Below are positions 15,483 to 25,184 of a DNA stretch of 43,358 nt, piece by piece. The stretch covers positions 1 to 43,358 of the forward strand of contig JALVIH010000003.1 in NCBI GenBank assembly GCA_027028625.1, written 5' to 3'. How positions within the stretch are numbered: the stretch's first letter is position 1; each line of letters starts with the position of its first letter. The translations under genes were made by a program, and so were the position numbers. The notes under the pieces were generated by a model. The model was not told where the DNA came from, ran no database searches, and was given only the letters and a program-made list of their open reading frames with translations. The stretch is from a bacterium. GTDB taxonomy: Bacteria > Patescibacteriota > Microgenomatia > JAADGY01.

Positions 15483-18407
15483 ATGTTTAAGGTAAAGATC
15501 GTTAGAGAAAAACCAACTATCGCTGTTTACTCCCGAGAATCGTTCTTCTTGGAACTTTTTCTTTACCATTTCCTTATGCGCCGAGGTGCCCAGGTATACC
15601 TCATTCATCCCCAAGCTGATCAACTTCTAAAACAACCTCATTGGCACTTTTTTACCGCTCACCCTAAGTTAAAAGTAATCTCCCTCCAAGAGGCTAAAGA
15701 AATTCATTCTAAAAAAATCGAGGCTTTTTTTGACTTGGCTCCATTATCTTGGGGTGAACATTTGGGAAAAAGTTTAAACGAGGAAATTGAGGTGGGGTAT
15801 GGTCTCATTAATCGACTTTCTTTAGCAGTACAATCAGAAACAAAATATATTCTTCTTACTCCTCTTATTTATAACCTAGCCAGTGAGCTAAACTTCTATT
15901 ACCAACTAAAAAACCAACAGCTCTTTTTAGCTCACTATGCCCAGGAGTCGCAACTTGCTTATAAAATACTCCAGTTGCCTAACTACCTCTATCCCACCTT
16001 ATTTAACCAACCTTGCCAAAACTTTCTCAGCCTTTTAATTACTTCTTTTTTAGGCAAACAACAAATCCCCCTTTCCCCTTCTACTCCTCTTTATCTGGCG
16101 GATATTGAGGGCATTATTAAAGAAGTAGAAAATCAAGTTTTTGGTTTTTCTTCTCAGAAAGAAATTTCTTTAATCGCTCAACCTCTTGCTCTTTCTTTAT
16201 TTCTAGAAAAAGTCAGAGAAATTTTTAAGATAGAAATTCAGCCCTTCTTTCAACCAACTTCGGTTGCCTTTACCCCTCTTTATCTGGGCCAACCACTTCA
16301 AACTCAATTAAGAGTAGAAAGTGACTTTTTAAAATTGTCCCGATTGGCTCAAGAAAATAAGGTTAGGTTAGCTTTTCCTCCTCGCCCCAACAAACTAAAA
16401 ATTGTTCCTCTGCACAACGATCAACCTGCTTCTTTTCAAATACCTTCGCCATCACCTATTCAAAAGGAAAAAACCAAACCCCAGAAGAAAACAAGGCTGC
16501 CTCACTTCTCTTTTAATTCTCTAACCCCTCCTAAAGTACCAACCCAATTAAAATACTTCTTATTCGCTTTTCTTTTTTTATTTCTTCTCACTAGCCTTAC
16601 TTTTGGTCTTCTTATTTTTTCTTTAAAAAAAGGAGTCTTTGAGTTCGAGAGTTGCCTTCATAGTCAAAACAATCATCTCCTTACTGGAGCTCTAAAGTCT
16701 GAACTACCCCAAAACAGTTCTCGTTGCTTAACAAAAACTAAGAAGTACCTTACTCTAGCCCAAAAAATCAACTCTTCCCTTGTCCCCATTTTTCAATTTA
16801 CAGGCTTAGCCACCACCAATGATCGAATTAGTGATATAGTTCACTTTTATCTCTCGGTTCTTAATGCTTTAGAAAAAAAGAATTCCCTACCTCTTGAGGA
16901 AACAGCTTTTTTAAATTACATCTTTAATCAAGATAGTGAGGGAGATTTCTCTTCTTACTATCACCGTCTAGACAAAGAATACTATCTTCTAACCACTAAC
17001 CTCGATAAATCAATCGCCCTCTATCGCTCAAACCAAAAAACTTATCAACAAGTTCACCTTTGGCACCTTAACAAACATTTTTCTACAACTTTTAATTACA
17101 TCCTCTCTTGGCGACAAAAACTAAAACAAAGGCTAGTTTTGTGGCAACAATTGCCTCAACTTTTAGGAACAACCAAAAGGCAGGATTACCTTATTGTTTT
17201 TGTGGATAATAATGAACTCCGACCTGGCGGCGGCTTGATTACAGCCTACGCCCAACTAACATTTGAGGGAGGACAGCTTTTGGACCTCCAAACCTTTGAT
17301 ATTTACCAACTTGATAACCAATTAACCGGTGAGGTAACTCCCCCTTCACCTCTTCAAGAATACTTGGGGCAAAAAAGTTGGCGAATAAGAGATGCTGCTT
17401 GGCAACCTTCCTATCCAGATACCGCCCGACAAATAGATTGGTTTTACCAAAAAGCCAGCGGCCAAAATATTGACGGGGTTATTTTAATTGATGATGATTT
17501 TTTAGCGGCTATGGCTGAGTTGTGGGGAGGATTTCATCTTCAGGATTTAAAACTGACCCTTAATAAAAACAATCTCCGCCGACGTCTTTTCCTCTGGGGT
17601 AATTTAGAGAAGGGCAACCAAAACCAAATCTTCGTCTCTCTTTTAAAAACTTTCTTGAGTCAACTAAAACAACTAAAGGGCCAACAGCTTCAGACCTTTA
17701 CCGCTACTTTGGATCAACTAGCCAAAACTAAGGATATTAATTTCTATTTCAATAACAGCCAATTAGAAAGTCTTTTCCTTGATCTGGGATGGGGAGGGGA
17801 GATGAAAACTCCCCAGTGTTCTCAAAATTGTATTGTTCTTTCCGGACCAGTCATCGAAGCTAACTTGGGAGCAAATAGAGTTAATTATCTTCTGTCCCAA
17901 CAACTAAAAACAGAGGTCAACATCACCCCCACTTTGATAACTGAGAACTTAAAATTGACTCTCAATAACCCTTCTTCCAGCCCTCGCTGGCCTGGAGGAA
18001 ATTACAACGATTACCTTCAGTGGTATTTTGAGCAGGGATGGAAATTAGAAGAAGTAAAAATTGGCGGAAGACACTTAGACATTGATAATATAAATGTGGC
18101 TACGCGGAGCGGATACCATATTTATAGTTTCTACCATCAGGTTGGTTACAACCAAAGCCAAACGGTCAGCCTTAAACTTAGCCGGCCCTTTAAAGAAAAC
18201 TCTAGCCTAGATCTGCTCTTTTGGCAACCCAAACAAATTGGCCTAACAATTCAAAAAGTCCTTTATCGTCTGAATCTGCCTCAAAACTCTAGAATAAAAG
18301 TCATCTCCCCCGTCGAGTGGAAAAAGAACAATCATCAAATAATATATCAGGGAGAACTAAATAAAAATATTCTCCTGCCAGTAAGGCTCAAGTTTATCTC
18401 TTTTTAA
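15483..18407 (+). CDS. DUF4012 domain-containing membrane protein
   Basis: DYLIVFVDNNELRPGGGLITAYAQLTFEGGQLLDLQTFDIY...WRIRDAAWQPSYPDTARQIDWFYQKASGQNIDGVILID; central TM helix. Confidence 0.85.
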   Translation: MFKVKIVREKPTIAVYSRESFFLELFLYHFLMRRGAQVYLIHPQADQLLKQPHWHFFTAHPKLKVISLQEAKEIHSKKIEAFFDLAPLSWGEHLGKSLNEEIEVGYGLINRLSLAVQSETKYILLTPLIYNLASELNFYYQLKNQQLFLAHYAQESQLAYKILQLPNYLYPTLFNQPCQNFLSLLITSFLGKQQIPLSPSTPLYLADIEGIIKEVENQVFGFSSQKEISLIAQPLALSLFLEKVREIFKIEIQPFFQPTSVAFTPLYLGQPLQTQLRVESDFLKLSRLAQENKVRLAFPPRPNKLKIVPLHNDQPASFQIPSPSPIQKEKTKPQKKTRLPHFSFNSLTPPKVPTQLKYFLFAFLFLFLLTSLTFGLLIFSLKKGVFEFESCLHSQNNHLLTGALKSELPQNSSRCLTKTKKYLTLAQKINSSLVPIFQFTGLATTNDRISDIVHFYLSVLNALEKKNSLPLEETAFLNYIFNQDSEGDFSSYYHRLDKEYYLLTTNLDKSIALYRSNQKTYQQVHLWHLNKHFSTTFNYILSWRQKLKQRLVLWQQLPQLLGTTKRQDYLIVFVDNNELRPGGGLITAYAQLTFEGGQLLDLQTFDIYQLDNQLTGEVTPPSPLQEYLGQKSWRIRDAAWQPSYPDTARQIDWFYQKASGQNIDGVILIDDDFLAAMAELWGGFHLQDLKLTLNKNNLRRRLFLWGNLEKGNQNQIFVSLLKTFLSQLKQLKGQQLQTFTATLDQLAKTKDINFYFNNSQLESLFLDLGWGGEMKTPQCSQNCIVLSGPVIEANLGANRVNYLLSQQLKTEVNITPTLITENLKLTLNNPSSSPRWPGGNYNDYLQWYFEQGWKLEEVKIGGRHLDIDNINVATRSGYHIYSFYHQVGYNQSQTVSLKLSRPFKENSSLDLLFWQPKQIGLTIQKVLYRLNLPQNSRIKVISPVEWKKNNHQIIYQGELNKNILLPVRLKFISF

Positions 18408-18737: not shown

Positions 18738-21074
18738 TTACAACCTAGCCCTTTGGGCTATCTCACGCTCAACTTCGTAGCGATCGCGGCCATACTTCAA
18801 CTGCGAAAGCTGGCGAATCATCTCGGCTACCTTTGGGTTCCTCATTCTTTCTTGAACACTCATATCCTTGGTTAGGTCTAAAGAAAAGGCTGGCAGAGGC
18901 TCATTGTTATAAATCGTCTTAATGTAAGCGTGGTACTTCTCAATGTTTAGGAGGTCGGTCTGACTAAAAACCGGAGCAAACTCGTTCTGAAGATAGTTAG
19001 CGTCAGTTACTCCCACCCGGAAGGAGATAAGGGTGCCAACATTACCAAAGACAGCGTTCTTAACCTCATCCTCCATCTGGCTAATAAACTGGTTGGCTAC
19101 CGTTAGGTTAAGGTGATACTTTCTGGCTTCGGAAAGAATTTGAGCAAAATCAGGAGTGGCAAAGTTCTGGAACTCATCTACATAAAGATAAAAATCCCGC
19201 CGCTGTTCCTCAGGCACGTCTTGGCGGCTCATGGCGGCCATTAAGATGCGGGGGACTAAAACCAAGCCTAAAAAGCTCGAGTTCTCTTCACCAATCTTCC
19301 CTTTTGCCAAACTAATTAAGAGGATTTTTCCTTCATCCATAACCTTCCGAAAATCAAAAGCGCTCTTCGACTGGCCGATTATGTTCCGCATCATTGGATT
19401 AGTGACAAAGCGGCCAAATTTAGAGACTATATAATCAAGAACTTCCGATTTGTGGAAGTCAGAAGTTTTAGCTATTTGATCAGTCCAATAACGCCGAACC
19501 ATAGGGTTCTTTACCTTAGGGAGAAGAGACCGCATATAATTATCGTCGGTTAATACCCGGACCACCTCAACAAAAGAGGCTCCCGGCTCAGCAGTAACAG
19601 TCAAGATGGCGTTGCGGACAGCATGCTCAAAACGGGGACCAACAATCCCTGTTTTGTGGGGATCAAAAAGTTTGTACATCATATTAATGATGGCTGAGGC
19701 AATAAATTGTTTCTGGTCCTCCGTCTTATATTCCAGAAGGTTGAGCCCCATCGGCCGGTCAAGGTTAGAGGGGTCAAAGAGAATTACATCCTCGGCTCGG
19801 TTAGGAGGGATTAACTCTAAGAGAATATCAATAGTGTCATGAGGGTCAATGAAACAAATACCTTTACCGGCTTTGATGTCTTGAAGCATCATATCAAGAA
19901 GGAATTGGGATTTCCCAGCCCCTGTTTTCCCAATAATATACATATGCCGACTCCGGTCCTTGTCTTGAATATAGACAGGTCGGCGGATACCACGGAAGTC
20001 ATTGTAACCCAAGAAGAGACCGCTGGTTGGAATTTGGGCTGGAGCTGGGGCCCTTTTGGCCATCAACCAGTGGATAAAAGGGGTTTCCACTGTTTTGTTA
20101 GGGAAGTGAAAGATGCTGGCCAACTCGTCGGTTGAGAGGATGGAGGTTCGACCAAAAAGAGGCAGGTAACGATAAATAACATCAAGCATAAACATTTTCT
20201 TGAACCAAATCTTCTTACTAACCAAGGCATTGTAGGCTGACTGGAACTGAGAAAAGGCGGCCACAATTTCTTTAAGGTGGGCTTCGGCTCGCTCCTTTTG
20301 GGGGGAAACCACCACCAAACGAAGGTCAGTGACAAAACCAGGCTTGGAACATTTATTCTCAATGGCGTCATAAGTTTTGGGGTCGATATTGTAATTTGCT
20401 TTTTTGGGGTCGGACTCTTCCTTTTTCTTATGGGCTATCCAACTCTTTCCTTGTTTTTGCCAGCGGTTAGAGGCAGGGGTAAGAACTATCTGGAAAATAG
20501 CCCCTTCCCCCTCCATCATCTTAGCCATAGCCGAAGTAATGGGGGCAATGCTGTCTGTGGCCATTTCTTTATAGGTCTTTAGCGGCCAGAAGGGTGCATT
20601 TTTTGTTTTTAGAGCAGTAAAAGCCACATAACCGTCTTTGGTAAAGATATTGTGGTCCTCAACAACCTTGATAAGAGCTTCTGGATAAGCCCCATAAATT
20701 TGCTTCTCTACTAACTGAAAGTCGTCTTCAGGGACGCTGATGTAGAAGCCAATGTTTTCTTTTGTGGCCACTAACTCGAGGGTTAGATGGCGGGGATGTT
20801 TAAAAAAACGGCTCCACCAATGAGAATGATAAAGGGAGGCAAAAGAAGAGAACATTTGTTCAGCTGCATCAACTTTTATTTCGTTGTCTTTAGGCACTAG
20901 GACTTCAAATGTAACCATCGAAAGAGACCTCTCTTCCCGACGGCGGTACTTTAACCATAAAAAGAACAACCAGATTAAAGCCAATAGAATACCAAAGAAA
21001 AAAAGAAAGGCAAAAAGGCTAACTGTAAAAGTAGTTAGTCTAAGAATAAGGGTGTTTAAGAACTCCTGGAACAT
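18738..21074 (-). CDS. VirD4/TraG-like type IV secretion ATPase
   Basis: N-terminal TM, Walker A MYIIGKTGAGKSQFLLDMM, ICFIDPHDTID, FYLYVDEFQNFATPDFAQILSEARKYHLNLTVANQFISQM. Confidence 0.85.
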   Translation of the reverse strand: MFQEFLNTLILRLTTFTVSLFAFLFFFGILLALIWLFFLWLKYRRREERSLSMVTFEVLVPKDNEIKVDAAEQMFSSFASLYHSHWWSRFFKHPRHLTLELVATKENIGFYISVPEDDFQLVEKQIYGAYPEALIKVVEDHNIFTKDGYVAFTALKTKNAPFWPLKTYKEMATDSIAPITSAMAKMMEGEGAIFQIVLTPASNRWQKQGKSWIAHKKKEESDPKKANYNIDPKTYDAIENKCSKPGFVTDLRLVVVSPQKERAEAHLKEIVAAFSQFQSAYNALVSKKIWFKKMFMLDVIYRYLPLFGRTSILSTDELASIFHFPNKTVETPFIHWLMAKRAPAPAQIPTSGLFLGYNDFRGIRRPVYIQDKDRSRHMYIIGKTGAGKSQFLLDMMLQDIKAGKGICFIDPHDTIDILLELIPPNRAEDVILFDPSNLDRPMGLNLLEYKTEDQKQFIASAIINMMYKLFDPHKTGIVGPRFEHAVRNAILTVTAEPGASFVEVVRVLTDDNYMRSLLPKVKNPMVRRYWTDQIAKTSDFHKSEVLDYIVSKFGRFVTNPMMRNIIGQSKSAFDFRKVMDEGKILLISLAKGKIGEENSSFLGLVLVPRILMAAMSRQDVPEEQRRDFYLYVDEFQNFATPDFAQILSEARKYHLNLTVANQFISQMEDEVKNAVFGNVGTLISFRVGVTDANYLQNEFAPVFSQTDLLNIEKYHAYIKTIYNNEPLPAFSLDLTKDMSVQERMRNPKVAEMIRQLSQLKYGRDRYEVEREIAQRARL

Positions 21075-21118: not shown

Positions 21119-21147
21119 TTTACAATTTTGGTCGGAGTGGGTATTAT
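21119..21147 (+). promoter_or_regulatory. Sigma-70 promoter driving the riboswitch leader
   Basis: TTTACA-N17-TATTAT. Confidence 0.7.
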
Positions 21148-21170
21148 ATTCTTGTTGACATTTTAGGCTC

Positions 21171-21254
21171 GGAAATCAAAGGAATTGGGTGAAAATCCCA
21201 AGCTGTGCCGCAACCGTGAGAGGAGTTCTCCTCGAGTCGGGAACTTTGATTTCT
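21171..21254 (+). ncRNA. Cobalamin riboswitch-like aptamer (compact)
   Basis: GGAATTGGGTGAAAATCCCAAGCTGTGCCGCAACCGTGA core matching cobalamin riboswitch consensus, B12-box-like GAGTCGGGAAC, closing helix GAAATCAAAG/CTTTGATTTC (10 bp perfect). Confidence 0.87.
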
Positions 21255-21271
21255 AAGTTAGTTACCGGAGG

Positions 21272-21327
21272 CCCTCGAGCAAGGGTTGGTCCGGGTAGAG
21301 TTTCTCTCCCCGATCCTTGCTGAGGGG
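21272..21327 (+). promoter_or_regulatory. Predicted riboswitch expression platform (SD-sequestering hairpin)
   Basis: CCCTC(g)AGCAAGG (21272-21284) pairs with CCTTGCTGAGGG (21315-21326), covering SD-like GAGGGG; inner stem CGGGtAGAG-TTT-CTCTcCCCG. Confidence 0.7.
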
Positions 21328-21332
21328 AAAAG

Positions 21333-22409
21333 ATAAGTAATTTAGAACGACACCAATTACTGCAAATCACTAAGGGGGAGGGAGCTTATCTCCTCTGGGG
21401 GGAAACAAAAGAACAAAACCTCCCTCTGTTTATCCTAAATGTCTTGGAGGCTCTTAATGAGGCTATTGGCGCTCCTACTTACCGAACCGAGTACTATCTA
21501 GGAGAAGAAGGCCATCTTATTCATTTACAAACCGGCCTAGACATCCAAGAATCAATGGCCTTGGCTATCCAAAAAGCCCAGATGCTTCTAAACACACAAA
21601 AAGAAGGGGGTCTCTTGGCTGAACAGTTTTCTCGGCTTGTTCTAGAAAAACACGGCTTGGAAAAAGTGGTTCAACTCCTGGAGGAAGGACATCGGCACAT
21701 TGTTTGGATTTCCCCTCCGGGTTTGGGCCTAAACAGTGGGGAGGCTCGGGTAAATATCTTTTCAAAAACTGGAGATAGGGTTTTAAATTTTGCTTTTGTA
21801 GCCACCCCCCAACTCCAGGCTCTCCAAGAGCTTGTCTCCTCTTTAGGGGGACCAGAAGAACTCGATCATTTTATTGATAATAATGGTTGGGTAGCCTCAT
21901 TTCTTCAGAATCCCTTCCCCACTAATCTAGACCCGCTCCAAGTAAAAGAAAGGGTTGTGGAAATGAATCAAACAGCCAACTTTACTCCCCCGGGTTTTGG
22001 AATAGATATTTACCAACTCTACCGCAAATACCCCCATATATTTGGTGTCCTTGAGGAGGAAATACAAAAGTTCTACTTCTCTTCTAGGCATTTTCCCGGC
22101 GAAGAGAGATATTCTAAAGAACTTGAGTTTCTTGGCTACCTTCTCAATTTCTATGTCAAGCCTTTATTAAGGTATGAGCTACAACAACAAGGAGTAAGTG
22201 AGGAGAAATTCCTCTTAGAATATAATGCCTTGATAAATCGAGTTAGTAGCTGTGGTCAAGGGTTGGGTTCTTTAATAAACCCAATTAATCCTCTGTCACA
22301 AATGAACCTCCTGGCCTTCAATTTTCTTTCCGAGGAAGAAAGGGGGGGATGCCCCCACTGTTCTTCTCCAAGAAGGGAAAAACCCCGTCCAAAACAATGG
22401 ACACCGTAG
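21333..22409 (+). CDS. Uncharacterised protein downstream of cobalamin riboswitch; ORF track start (TTG 21444) is probably too short
   Basis: In-frame open from 21324: GEKISNLERHQLLQITKGEGAYLLWGETKEQNLPLFILNVLEALNEAIG...; SD at 21322-21327; C-terminal CPHC. Confidence 0.7.
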   Translation: MSNLERHQLLQITKGEGAYLLWGETKEQNLPLFILNVLEALNEAIGAPTYRTEYYLGEEGHLIHLQTGLDIQESMALAIQKAQMLLNTQKEGGLLAEQFSRLVLEKHGLEKVVQLLEEGHRHIVWISPPGLGLNSGEARVNIFSKTGDRVLNFAFVATPQLQALQELVSSLGGPEELDHFIDNNGWVASFLQNPFPTNLDPLQVKERVVEMNQTANFTPPGFGIDIYQLYRKYPHIFGVLEEEIQKFYFSSRHFPGEERYSKELEFLGYLLNFYVKPLLRYELQQQGVSEEKFLLEYNALINRVSSCGQGLGSLINPINPLSQMNLLAFNFLSEEERGGCPHCSSPRREKPRPKQWTP

Positions 22410-22427
22410 GATAGTCTATAATATCTT

Positions 22428-23411
22428 ATGGCCCAAAAAGACAAGATAAGAAAGCTAGCCCACTTAAAGATAGGCCAAGATCCAGCCAACCAGGACCCAC
22501 TTAACCTTTGGGATACTCTCCCCATTAATTATTTATCTCTCCCTGATAAAGACTTCGACTCTCTCCAAACAACGACTACTTTTTTAAACAAAACTCTCTC
22601 TCTTCCTCTAATTATTGGGGCCTTAACCTTCCCTGTGGATCAAAAGACTCGACAACTAAACAATAACCTCGTCAGGCTAGCCGAAGAAAAAAAGTTAGCT
22701 TTTAATGTCGGTAGCCAACGGATTATGGTAGAAAATAACCTGGATGCCGAGGCCAAACGCCTCCGCCGCCTCGCCCCAACGGCCTGCATCCTGGCCAACT
22801 TTGGTGCTGTTCAGCTTAATTATGGTTGGGGAATTGAGGATGCTCGCCGTTGTGTTGATACGCTCGAGGCCGACGCCCTCGTTCTTCATCTTAACTGCCT
22901 TCAAGAGCTAATTCAGCCAGAAGGGCACAAAAACTTTAAGGGCCTTCTTCAGAAGATAGAACTCCTAGTCAAAAAAATTAGTGTTCCTTTAATTATTAAA
23001 GAAGTTGGTATGGGCATCGATCCCCAAACGGCCAAAAGGCTTTATGATTTGGGGGTTTACGGAATAGACGTTGCTGGAAAAGGGGGAACTAATTGGGCTA
23101 AAATCGAGGCCGGTCGGCGACAGGATGATTGGGCTGTTCCCTTTTACACTCTTGGTTATTCTGCTCCAGACTTAGTAAAAGAAATCTCCAAATTTAAACC
23201 CAAAGACAGAATTTTAATCGCCTCTGGAGGAATTCGCAACGGCCTCCATATTGCTAAAGCCTTATGGCTAGGAGCTGACCTGGCATCAGCGGCTTACCCA
23301 TTCCTCATTGCCGGCCAAAAGGGTTACTCCGAGTTGGTAAAATTGTACAACAAACTTCACTGGCAATATAAAGTTAGTCTGATGGTAATCAAAAATGGCC
23401 AAAATTCTTAA
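22428..23411 (+). CDS. fni: Type 2 isopentenyl-diphosphate delta-isomerase
   Basis: INYLSLPDKDFDSLQTTTTFLNKTLSLPLIIGALT; FNVGSQRIMVEN; GVYGIDVAGKGGTNWAKIE; IASGGIRNGLHIAKALWLGADLAS. Confidence 0.93.
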   Translation: MAQKDKIRKLAHLKIGQDPANQDPLNLWDTLPINYLSLPDKDFDSLQTTTTFLNKTLSLPLIIGALTFPVDQKTRQLNNNLVRLAEEKKLAFNVGSQRIMVENNLDAEAKRLRRLAPTACILANFGAVQLNYGWGIEDARRCVDTLEADALVLHLNCLQELIQPEGHKNFKGLLQKIELLVKKISVPLIIKEVGMGIDPQTAKRLYDLGVYGIDVAGKGGTNWAKIEAGRRQDDWAVPFYTLGYSAPDLVKEISKFKPKDRILIASGGIRNGLHIAKALWLGADLASAAYPFLIAGQKGYSELVKLYNKLHWQYKVSLMVIKNGQNS

Positions 23412-24369
23412 GGGTAAAGGGCAGGGGCCGCTTTTTATAGCATTAATTAAATATTGGGGGAATATAGATAACGATCTTCGAATTCCTAGAAATGACAATC
23501 TTGCCATTAACCTAGATTTTATTGGTACCGACACCAATGTCTCTTTCTCTCCTGGCTTTAAAGAGGACAGGGTTGTAGTAAATGGCAAGGCTCTTGAAAG
23601 AGAGAAAAAACTTAGGGTTATTAGGGTTGTAGATATTATGAGAAAAAGGGCTAAAATTAATTGGCCAGTTCATATATTTTCAGAAAACCACATCCCTACG
23701 GCGAGTGGGATTGGTTCCTCGGCAAGCAGCTTTAGCGACCTGGTAGTTGCCATTAATAAGGCTCTTAAGCTTAATTTGACCAAGAAGGAATTATCATTAA
23801 TGGCTAGGCTAGGTTCTGGATCAGCAGCTAGAGCAATCCCCTCAGGTTTTGTTTTACTACCAGGAAATTGCTCTCAATCAGAGGCTTATGCCCGCACACT
23901 TTTCCCTCCGTCTTACTGGCCACTCTCCATTTTTATAATAATCCTCTCTGATGCCCAAAAACATACTCTTACAACTCAGGGTCATTTAGGTGCCTCAACC
24001 AGCCCCCTTTATAAAGAACGGCAGTGGGGGCTAAAAGAAAGATTAAAAGAAATAATTAAAACAATAAGAGACAAAGACATTTGGCGATTGGGTAGGCTAT
24101 TAGAAGCAGAGGCACTTAGTCTTCATGCCAACATTATGTCTCAATCCCCACCAATTTTTTATTGGTCGCCCCGAACTTTCCGGTTTGTAAAAGATTTAGT
24201 TGATTATAGAGAAAAAGAAGGTTATCCAATTTTTTGGACCATAGATGCGGGTGAGAATCTGTTTTTACTAACCGTTCCAGATTACGAGGATGTGGTCAAA
24301 ACTTTTATATCTCGCCACCCAGAAGTTAAAAAATATTATTTGACCCATCCAGGGAAGGGGCCACGATGA
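23395..24369 (+). CDS. Diphosphomevalonate decarboxylase family (possibly phosphomevalonate decarboxylase)
   Basis: GHMP fold: ALIKYWGNIDNDLRIPRNDNLAINLD; PTASGIGSSASSFSDLVVAINKAL; GSGSAARAIPSGFV. Confidence 0.87.
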   Translation: MAKILKGKGQGPLFIALIKYWGNIDNDLRIPRNDNLAINLDFIGTDTNVSFSPGFKEDRVVVNGKALEREKKLRVIRVVDIMRKRAKINWPVHIFSENHIPTASGIGSSASSFSDLVVAINKALKLNLTKKELSLMARLGSGSAARAIPSGFVLLPGNCSQSEAYARTLFPPSYWPLSIFIIILSDAQKHTLTTQGHLGASTSPLYKERQWGLKERLKEIIKTIRDKDIWRLGRLLEAEALSLHANIMSQSPPIFYWSPRTFRFVKDLVDYREKEGYPIFWTIDAGENLFLLTVPDYEDVVKTFISRHPEVKKYYLTHPGKGPR

Positions 24370-25184
24370 CCAAAACGCAAAAAATCATTCTTATTAAGAT
24401 TGGCGGTTCTTTGATAACAGACAAAAATACCCCCTTCAGCCTGAACAAAAGAAATCTGGGAATTATTGCTAATGAAATTAGTTATCTTTACCAACGGGCC
24501 CCCTTCAAACTTCTTTTGGGACACGGTTCGGGATCTTTTGGCCATACGGTGGCCGCCACCTACCAAACTCAAAACGGTGTTAATTCTTCCAACTTTGAAG
24601 AGGTTTTGGGGGTGGCCTTGGTTAAAGAGGCAGCCAGCCGCTTAAATCAGATAATTATTCAAAAATTATTAAAACTAAAAGTTCCAGCAACCACCATCCA
24701 CCCTGATTCATTTCTATATTCAGAAGACAAGCATCTAATAATGGCCTTTTGGCAAAATCTCAACCACCTTCTTAAGATGCCAGTTCTTCCAGTTGTCTAT
24801 GGAGACGTTATCTTTGACCAAAAGATTGGGGCAACAATCTTCTCGACCGAGCAAGTTTTGGCTGAGATAGGCAAGACATTGGTCGCCCAGGGGTGGCAGG
24901 TAACTATTGTCCACTGCGGGGCAACTAAGGGGGTTTACAATACCCAGGGCAAAACCATTCCTTTAATTACCCCCTCAAATTTTGCCTCAATTGCCTCCTC
25001 AATTGGCGGCTCAGCTGGAATAGATGTTACTGGAGGAATGATTCATAAAGTCAAAACTAGCTTGGAGTTAACCAAATTTGGTATTACCTCATATATAACT
25101 GACGGAGTTACTAGGGGAAGTTTAAGAAAACTGCTCCTAGAAGGAATAAAAACAGACACCACCGTAATCGAGGGAAACCTCTAA
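24366..25184 (+). CDS. Isopentenyl phosphate kinase (amino acid kinase family)
   Basis: IKIGGSLITDK..., LLLGHGSGSFGH (diagnostic His), GGSAGIDVTGGMIHKVKTSLEL. Confidence 0.9.
   Translation: MTKTQKIILIKIGGSLITDKNTPFSLNKRNLGIIANEISYLYQRAPFKLLLGHGSGSFGHTVAATYQTQNGVNSSNFEEVLGVALVKEAASRLNQIIIQKLLKLKVPATTIHPDSFLYSEDKHLIMAFWQNLNHLLKMPVLPVVYGDVIFDQKIGATIFSTEQVLAEIGKTLVAQGWQVTIVHCGATKGVYNTQGKTIPLITPSNFASIASSIGGSAGIDVTGGMIHKVKTSLELTKFGITSYITDGVTRGSLRKLLLEGIKTDTTVIEGNL

Follow-up and report, generated by a model that had tools for sequence, protein, structure and literature searches.

A cobalamin riboswitch recurs upstream of an uncharacterized protein family in Microgenomatia and suggests an unrecognized protein in B12 handling

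Judged by covariance models and by compensatory changes in its helices, a leader in the 43,358-nucleotide stretch of genome analyzed here (the window) is a genuine cobalamin riboswitch, and it stands directly upstream of the gene for an uncharacterized protein, P0001. The same pairing of riboswitch and protein family recurs across Microgenomatia, a class of ultra-small bacteria known mainly from sequences, which suggests an unrecognized protein in B12 handling. Cobalamin riboswitches reliably mark B12 genes; in roughly half of the sampled Microgenomatia genomes, the riboswitch points to a family for which Pfam-A and NCBIfam hold no description beyond generic zinc ribbons. A search of an open-access library turned up no publication that deals with cobalamin riboswitches of Patescibacteria. 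The features of the leader and its gene are given below; the genomes compared are the four sampled from the window's order, namely, the window genome (G000), one of the same genus (G003), and two of other genera (G001 and G002).

21119 to 21147, forward strand: promoter-like TTTACA-N17-TATTAT, matching 10 of 12 consensus positions.
21154 to 21297, forward strand: aptamer of the AdoCbl/cobalamin riboswitch plus the 3' hairpin (RF01482, RF00174).
21172 to 21181 with 21244 to 21253, forward strand: perfect closing helix of 10 bp, with 90% of cells paired in the four genomes.
21272 to 21285, forward strand: L13-like hairpin CCCTCGAGCAAGGG, whose CCCTC (21272 to 21276) alternatively pairs with the Shine-Dalgarno (SD) sequence.
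21307 to 21311 with 21324 to 21328, forward strand: local SD-hiding stem UCCCC/GGGGA, predicted with the L13 loop held unpaired.
21322 to 21327, forward strand: SD-like GAGGGG, recognized by sequence and present at the same place in G003 and G001.
21333 to 22409, forward strand: uncharacterized protein P0001, 358 aa, with a probable AUA start and no Pfam or NCBIfam match.

A cmscan search of the whole window returned a single match, to the AdoCbl model RF01482, which spans the full model at 21154 to 21297 on the forward strand with 69.4 bits (gathering score, 50; E value, 7e-11). The RF00174 model matches at 21142 to 21267 with 36.6 bits (gathering score, 31.5), its only match in the genome. 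Scores of this order exclude a chance match. The first-pass annotation, made from the sequence alone, had called the element a cobalamin riboswitch and had proposed a check against RF00174, RF01482, and RF01689; the first two lie above gathering, and RF01482, rather than AdoCbl-II (RF01689), is the best match of the clan. The promoter, core, B12-box-like stretch, and perfect closing helix that it had described are likewise all present, and both promoter hexamers are retained in the congener G003 despite a diverged spacer. In the alignment of the four genomes, the core GGGTGAAAATCCCAAGCTGTGCCGCAACCGTGA is (nearly) invariant, the B12-box-like GAGTCGGGAAC occupies 21234 to 21244 of the window, and both sides have changed in 5 of the 10 pairs of the closing helix. 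A hand-written structure for these four sequences leaves 86.7% of cells paired, against 25.8 to 61.7% for slid versions, and also surpasses nearly all shuffles, with seven pairs changed on both sides; the test is a small one, with one helix poorly kept and missing in two of the four sequences. Each of the four genomes has exactly one RF00174 match, directly 5' of a homologue of the window gene, and the three other homologues are 71, 38, and 34% identical to the window protein. The putative ligand of the leader would be AdoCbl. The modest RF00174 score might be taken to point to a change of ligand in the course of evolution or to a nonfunctional relic, but an invariant core with compensatory changes over three genera, the RF01482 match of 69.4 bits, and the B12 genes that adjoin the riboswitch throughout the class make this very unlikely.

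The invariant part of the L13-like hairpin in the four genomes is CCCTCGAGCAAGG, and about 40 nt separate this 3' hairpin from GAGGGG. In the free minimum-energy fold, CCCTC at 21272 to 21276 pairs with GAGGG at 21322 to 21326, and the mean unpaired value of the SD is 0.17; when the L13-like and L5 loops are constrained to remain unpaired, UCCCC becomes the partner of the SD, and the value is 0.27. Comparable SD stems are formed by CCCCCUC/GAGGGGG in G001 and by CUUCCCCC/GGGGGGGAG in G002, and the SD stems of G001 to G003 are stable. Because the SD is mostly paired in both modeled states, folding does not settle the direction of the switch. The first-pass annotation had proposed that CCCTC/GAGGG pairing hides the SD; that pairing does occur in the free fold, but the ligand-free state is the wrong one for a simple OFF switch. 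In this class of riboswitch, an L5-L13 kissing loop coupled to repression is the established rule, and a single corrinoid riboswitch acting as an activator is known (PMC10653944). Across the class Microgenomatia, 67 of the 88 family loci carry a GAGCAGG-type (CCCGAGCAGGG-type) motif immediately 5' of the start codon, a position fitting occlusion of the SD by the 3' hairpin. As for the start codon of the window gene, its frame is open from 21324 and has no ATG, GTG, or TTG before 21444, while an ATA at 21333 lies at the ideal distance from the SD; ATA is also found in G003, and ATG follows a comparable SD in G001 and G002. Hence, translation probably starts at an AUA codon.

Three genes of isoprenoid metabolism follow P0001 in the window.

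22428 to 23411, forward strand: idi2, type 2 isopentenyl-diphosphate isomerase (TIGR02151, 285.8 bits; cutoff, 281.3).
23395 to 24369, forward strand: mvaD, (di)phosphomevalonate decarboxylase (TIGR01240, 200.5 bits; cutoff, 171.4).
24366 to 25184, forward strand: isopentenyl phosphate kinase, IPK (NF040647, 173 bits; cutoff, 120).

The first-pass annotation had considered that B12 might also control this string, and one could suppose that the leader lets B12 govern the supply of isoprenoid precursors: idi2 starts 18 nt after P0001, mvaD and IPK then overlap in series, no convincing terminator was found between P0001 and idi2, and idi2 also follows the homologue in G003. The full string behind P0001 belongs to G000, however, and in G001 and G002 the leader and the homologue are kept while the next gene is either one of about 970 aa or one on the opposite strand; a weak promoter-like match also lies at 22398 to 22427. 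We accordingly reject B12 control of isoprenoid synthesis, a highly improbable explanation of the leader. idi2 is possibly a genus-specific operon mate of P0001, and any B12 control of idi2-mvaD-IPK would be at most a local by-product. On its other side, the riboswitch adjoins a VirD4/TraG-type coupling-protein-like ATPase (18741 to 21074, reverse strand), and a 974-aa DUF4012 protein is encoded nearby (15483 to 18404, forward strand); homologues of both, of similar size, adjoin the riboswitch in G003.

The uncharacterized gene that the first-pass annotation placed behind the leader proved to belong to a family of its own. RF00174 matches were found in 179 of 384 class genomes, 100 of them over the cutoff, and about 110 of these riboswitch loci (n = 111) were examined with an iterated hidden Markov model (HMM). 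A single divergent family that includes P0001, comprising 90 reading frames, lies behind the riboswitch at 88 of the 111 loci, so the leader sought in relatives recurs well beyond the four genomes of the order. An HMM built without the window's order recovers P0001 with 40.7 bits (E value, 1e-12), against 4.0 bits for the best of about 200 shuffled or reversed controls. The wider HMM is thus convincing where a short subfamily profile, set against P0001 alone, is not. A contig scan with the single P0001 sequence found no relative, and one with the subfamily alignment found 11. At an E value of 0.001 or below, the family profile matches in 101 of 192 genomes, the weakest of these matches being to the ribbon only, and the named matches come from Daviesbacteria, Woesebacteria, and other Patescibacteria, on which the assignment of the class as probably Microgenomatia is based. 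The family conserves a glutamate, a WxSPPxxGxY motif, a proline, an (S/G)C(P/G) motif, and usually a C-terminal CxxC...CxxC zinc ribbon, which is common without being universal: P0001 keeps one CxxC (CPHC), and none aligns in G001 to G003. By inspection of their sequences, the proteins look cytosolic.

Searches of the family set (A4) against Pfam and NCBIfam gave generic zinc-ribbon matches only; PADLOC and PHROGs gave weak, scattered matches, and a PDB sequence search gave nothing significant. Viral contigs held no relative of the family, and a viral origin is therefore not supported. The predicted structure of a Daviesbacteria member (pLDDT, 76, and around 90 in the core; pTM, 0.71) has its best PDB match at an E value of 0.012; the fold search thus found no PDB or viral match at 0.001, and at that threshold the PDB structure search gave the family no recognizable fold or catalytic site. 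Matches to PAS/GAF-type structures are weak (PYP and similar proteins, E values of 0.27 and above) and amount to no more than a lead. The model of P0001 itself is poor (pLDDT, 49), with an order of helices and strands comparable to that of the Daviesbacteria model. Other unannotated proteins, of about 570 to 700 aa, lie behind B12 riboswitches at loci L075, L079, L084, L099, L100, L111, and L113, several of them directly after an adenosyltransferase gene; these may be remote members of the family or represent further unrecognized families.

The pairing of leader and gene extends to family members outside the RF00174 set. We took 20 family genes from genomes that had no RF00174 match among the matches listed. 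Upstream of 13 of these is a riboswitch of the B12 clan at an E value below 0.05 (10 AdoCbl-II, RF01689, of which 6 exceed the gathering score; 1 RF01482; and 2 RF00174), and a GTGCCGC core is visible by eye in 5 more, bringing those with a B12 leader or core to 18 of 20. In the remaining two (L144 and L145), a cobalamin adenosyltransferase gene lies immediately upstream of the family gene. At L096 (409 to 2479), an RF00174 riboswitch is followed by a DUF4430 gene, an ECF-S-like DUF6580 gene, an RF01689 AdoCbl-II leader, and the family gene, in that order. The use of two kinds of riboswitch on one family, together with the presence of both in the L096 operon, argues that B12 control has been selected for. 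In another genome, metE lies under a 98.7-bit cobalamin riboswitch (L009, 1021 to 1192), and the same genome has another riboswitch, accompanied by a family member, at L051.

The PduO-type adenosyltransferase (PF01923) is present in 273 of the 384 class genomes. Of the 66 genomes for which both coordinates are listed, 36 have it no more than 2 kb from the riboswitch, on the same strand in all 36 and upstream in 35, mostly less than 130 nt away; this count concerns the riboswitch, the gene behind it not always being classed as a family member, and like the counts and chance values that follow it is uncorrected for shared descent of the genomes. At two loci (L147 and L148), one AdoCbl-II leader precedes both the adenosyltransferase and the family gene. 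This arrangement bears on the possibility that the family is a B12-sparing backup that replaces or relieves the NrdJ step when AdoCbl runs short. metE and B12-independent ribonucleotide reductase (RNR) genes are such backups under cobalamin riboswitches elsewhere, a repressing leader suits backup genes too (metE stands behind a riboswitch in L009), and the AdoCbl enzyme evident in the window genome is NrdJ. The occurrence of the adenosyltransferase and the family gene under one leader in two loci nevertheless favors a role in assimilation over a B12-free backup; the company of the DUF4430 and DUF6580 uptake genes in L096 points the same way, and the family matches neither TIGR02504 or PF02867 nor any other RNR or isozyme family. 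We therefore consider a backup role unlikely.

Class II RNR genes (nrdJ) lie 0.7 to 1.9 kb upstream of the riboswitch or family gene, on the same strand, in 16 genomes, mainly of family f28, and downstream in one. Riboswitch and NrdJ co-occur (96 of 100 genomes with the riboswitch against 214 of 284 others; P = 1e-6, uncorrected for shared descent), an association to which we give little weight for that reason. In other classes of the phylum, proteins resembling DUF4430 by inspection follow the riboswitch, as do other unannotated proteins; at L169 and L180, from another Patescibacteria class, a cobalamin riboswitch lies directly behind nrdJ and before a further unannotated protein. The first-pass annotation saw no B12 gene in the window, which holds for that stretch alone; its suggestion to look for B12-dependent genes elsewhere in the genome was productive.

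L138, 1177 to 7511 (contig C29), and L139, 949 to 3198 (contig C33): NrdJ_Z genes of the window's own genome (about 725 kb).

All four exceed the curated cutoff, three of them in tandem on C29 and one on C33, and a single PduO-type adenosyltransferase gene lies on contig C48 (151 bits). The cell hence has an AdoCbl-dependent enzyme and a route from taken-up cobalamin to AdoCbl. Within the order, however, the adenosyltransferase and nrdJ are encoded on contigs other than that of the riboswitch, and a search for DUF4430 gave no match, observations that weigh against the role proposed below. Three or four class II RNR genes also occur in each of the order's other genomes. The family profile also matches the C-terminal part of one of the genome's own NrdJ proteins (C29, 7047 to 7508; E value, 7e-8), probably owing to a common type of zinc ribbon. 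Taken with the adjacency of nrdJ and the family in one lineage and with the several weak PAS/GAF-type structure matches, this likeness could indicate a factor specific to NrdJ (acting in its reactivation, inhibition, or redox recycling) or a PAS-like sensor, neither acting on cobalamin itself. Such a role seems improbable to us: the link to the adenosyltransferase is commoner and tighter, zinc ribbons are short elements with matches in many proteins, P0001 has lost most of its ribbon, and no PAS match is significant.

With the leader and its conservation, the family, its adenosyltransferase and nrdJ neighbors, and the genome's own NrdJ and adenosyltransferase genes as computed observations, we propose that an AdoCbl riboswitch controls how the gene behind it is translated. 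At high AdoCbl, the bound aptamer would stabilize the 3' hairpin and the ribosome-binding site would stay hidden, an OFF direction that we infer; when AdoCbl is scarce, the family protein would be made. Its putative role would be to help B12-scavenging Microgenomatia convert imported cobalamin to usable AdoCbl and supply it to NrdJ, possibly as a cytosolic protein that works with the PduO-type adenosyltransferase, such as a corrinoid reductase, a processing protein, or an escort. That an AdoCbl-repressed translational switch controls a helper for cobalamin assimilation or for delivery to NrdJ we regard as fairly probable. The more specific proposition, that the family is a dedicated, previously unrecognized assimilation factor, the partner of PduO, and the main target of B12 riboswitches in Microgenomatia, is a serious possibility that we put forward tentatively. 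The neighboring adenosyltransferase and NrdJ bear on something that organisms with such reduced genomes probably depend on, namely, obtaining enough B12 to make DNA. If true, the proposal would add a component to cobalamin handling and offer a testable approach to the question of what these presumed epibionts obtain from other cells.

Several parallels are offered by known systems. The leader resembles the AdoCbl and cobalamin riboswitches of RF01482 and RF00174 (clan CL00101) in its core, helices, 3' hairpin, score, and translational arrangement; it differs in the approximately 40 extra nucleotides and second stem that separate the SD from the 3' hairpin, in the undescribed target gene, and in the probable AUA start. 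In the translational riboswitches of E. coli btuB and env8HyCbl, an L5-L13 kissing loop stabilizes P13 and a hairpin with the ribosome-binding site (PMC10653944). A comparable logic would be expected here, with the class-wide L13-like GAGCAGG motif directly before the start, although in the window's order the SD lies farther off and is predicted to be mostly paired in both modeled states. The PduO adenosyltransferase shares a locus with the family, and one riboswitch in the two loci checked, whereas the family, P0001 included, lacks a PF01923 match. NrdJ (TIGR02504) is a neighbor in some lineages and has a similar C-terminal zinc ribbon, but the family possesses neither the RNR barrel nor any RNR match. 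Finally, the DUF4430 (transcobalamin-like) and DUF6580 genes of Patescibacteria are also found under cobalamin riboswitches, accompanying the family in L096; their products are membrane or exported proteins of the uptake type, in contrast to the cytosolic appearance of the family.
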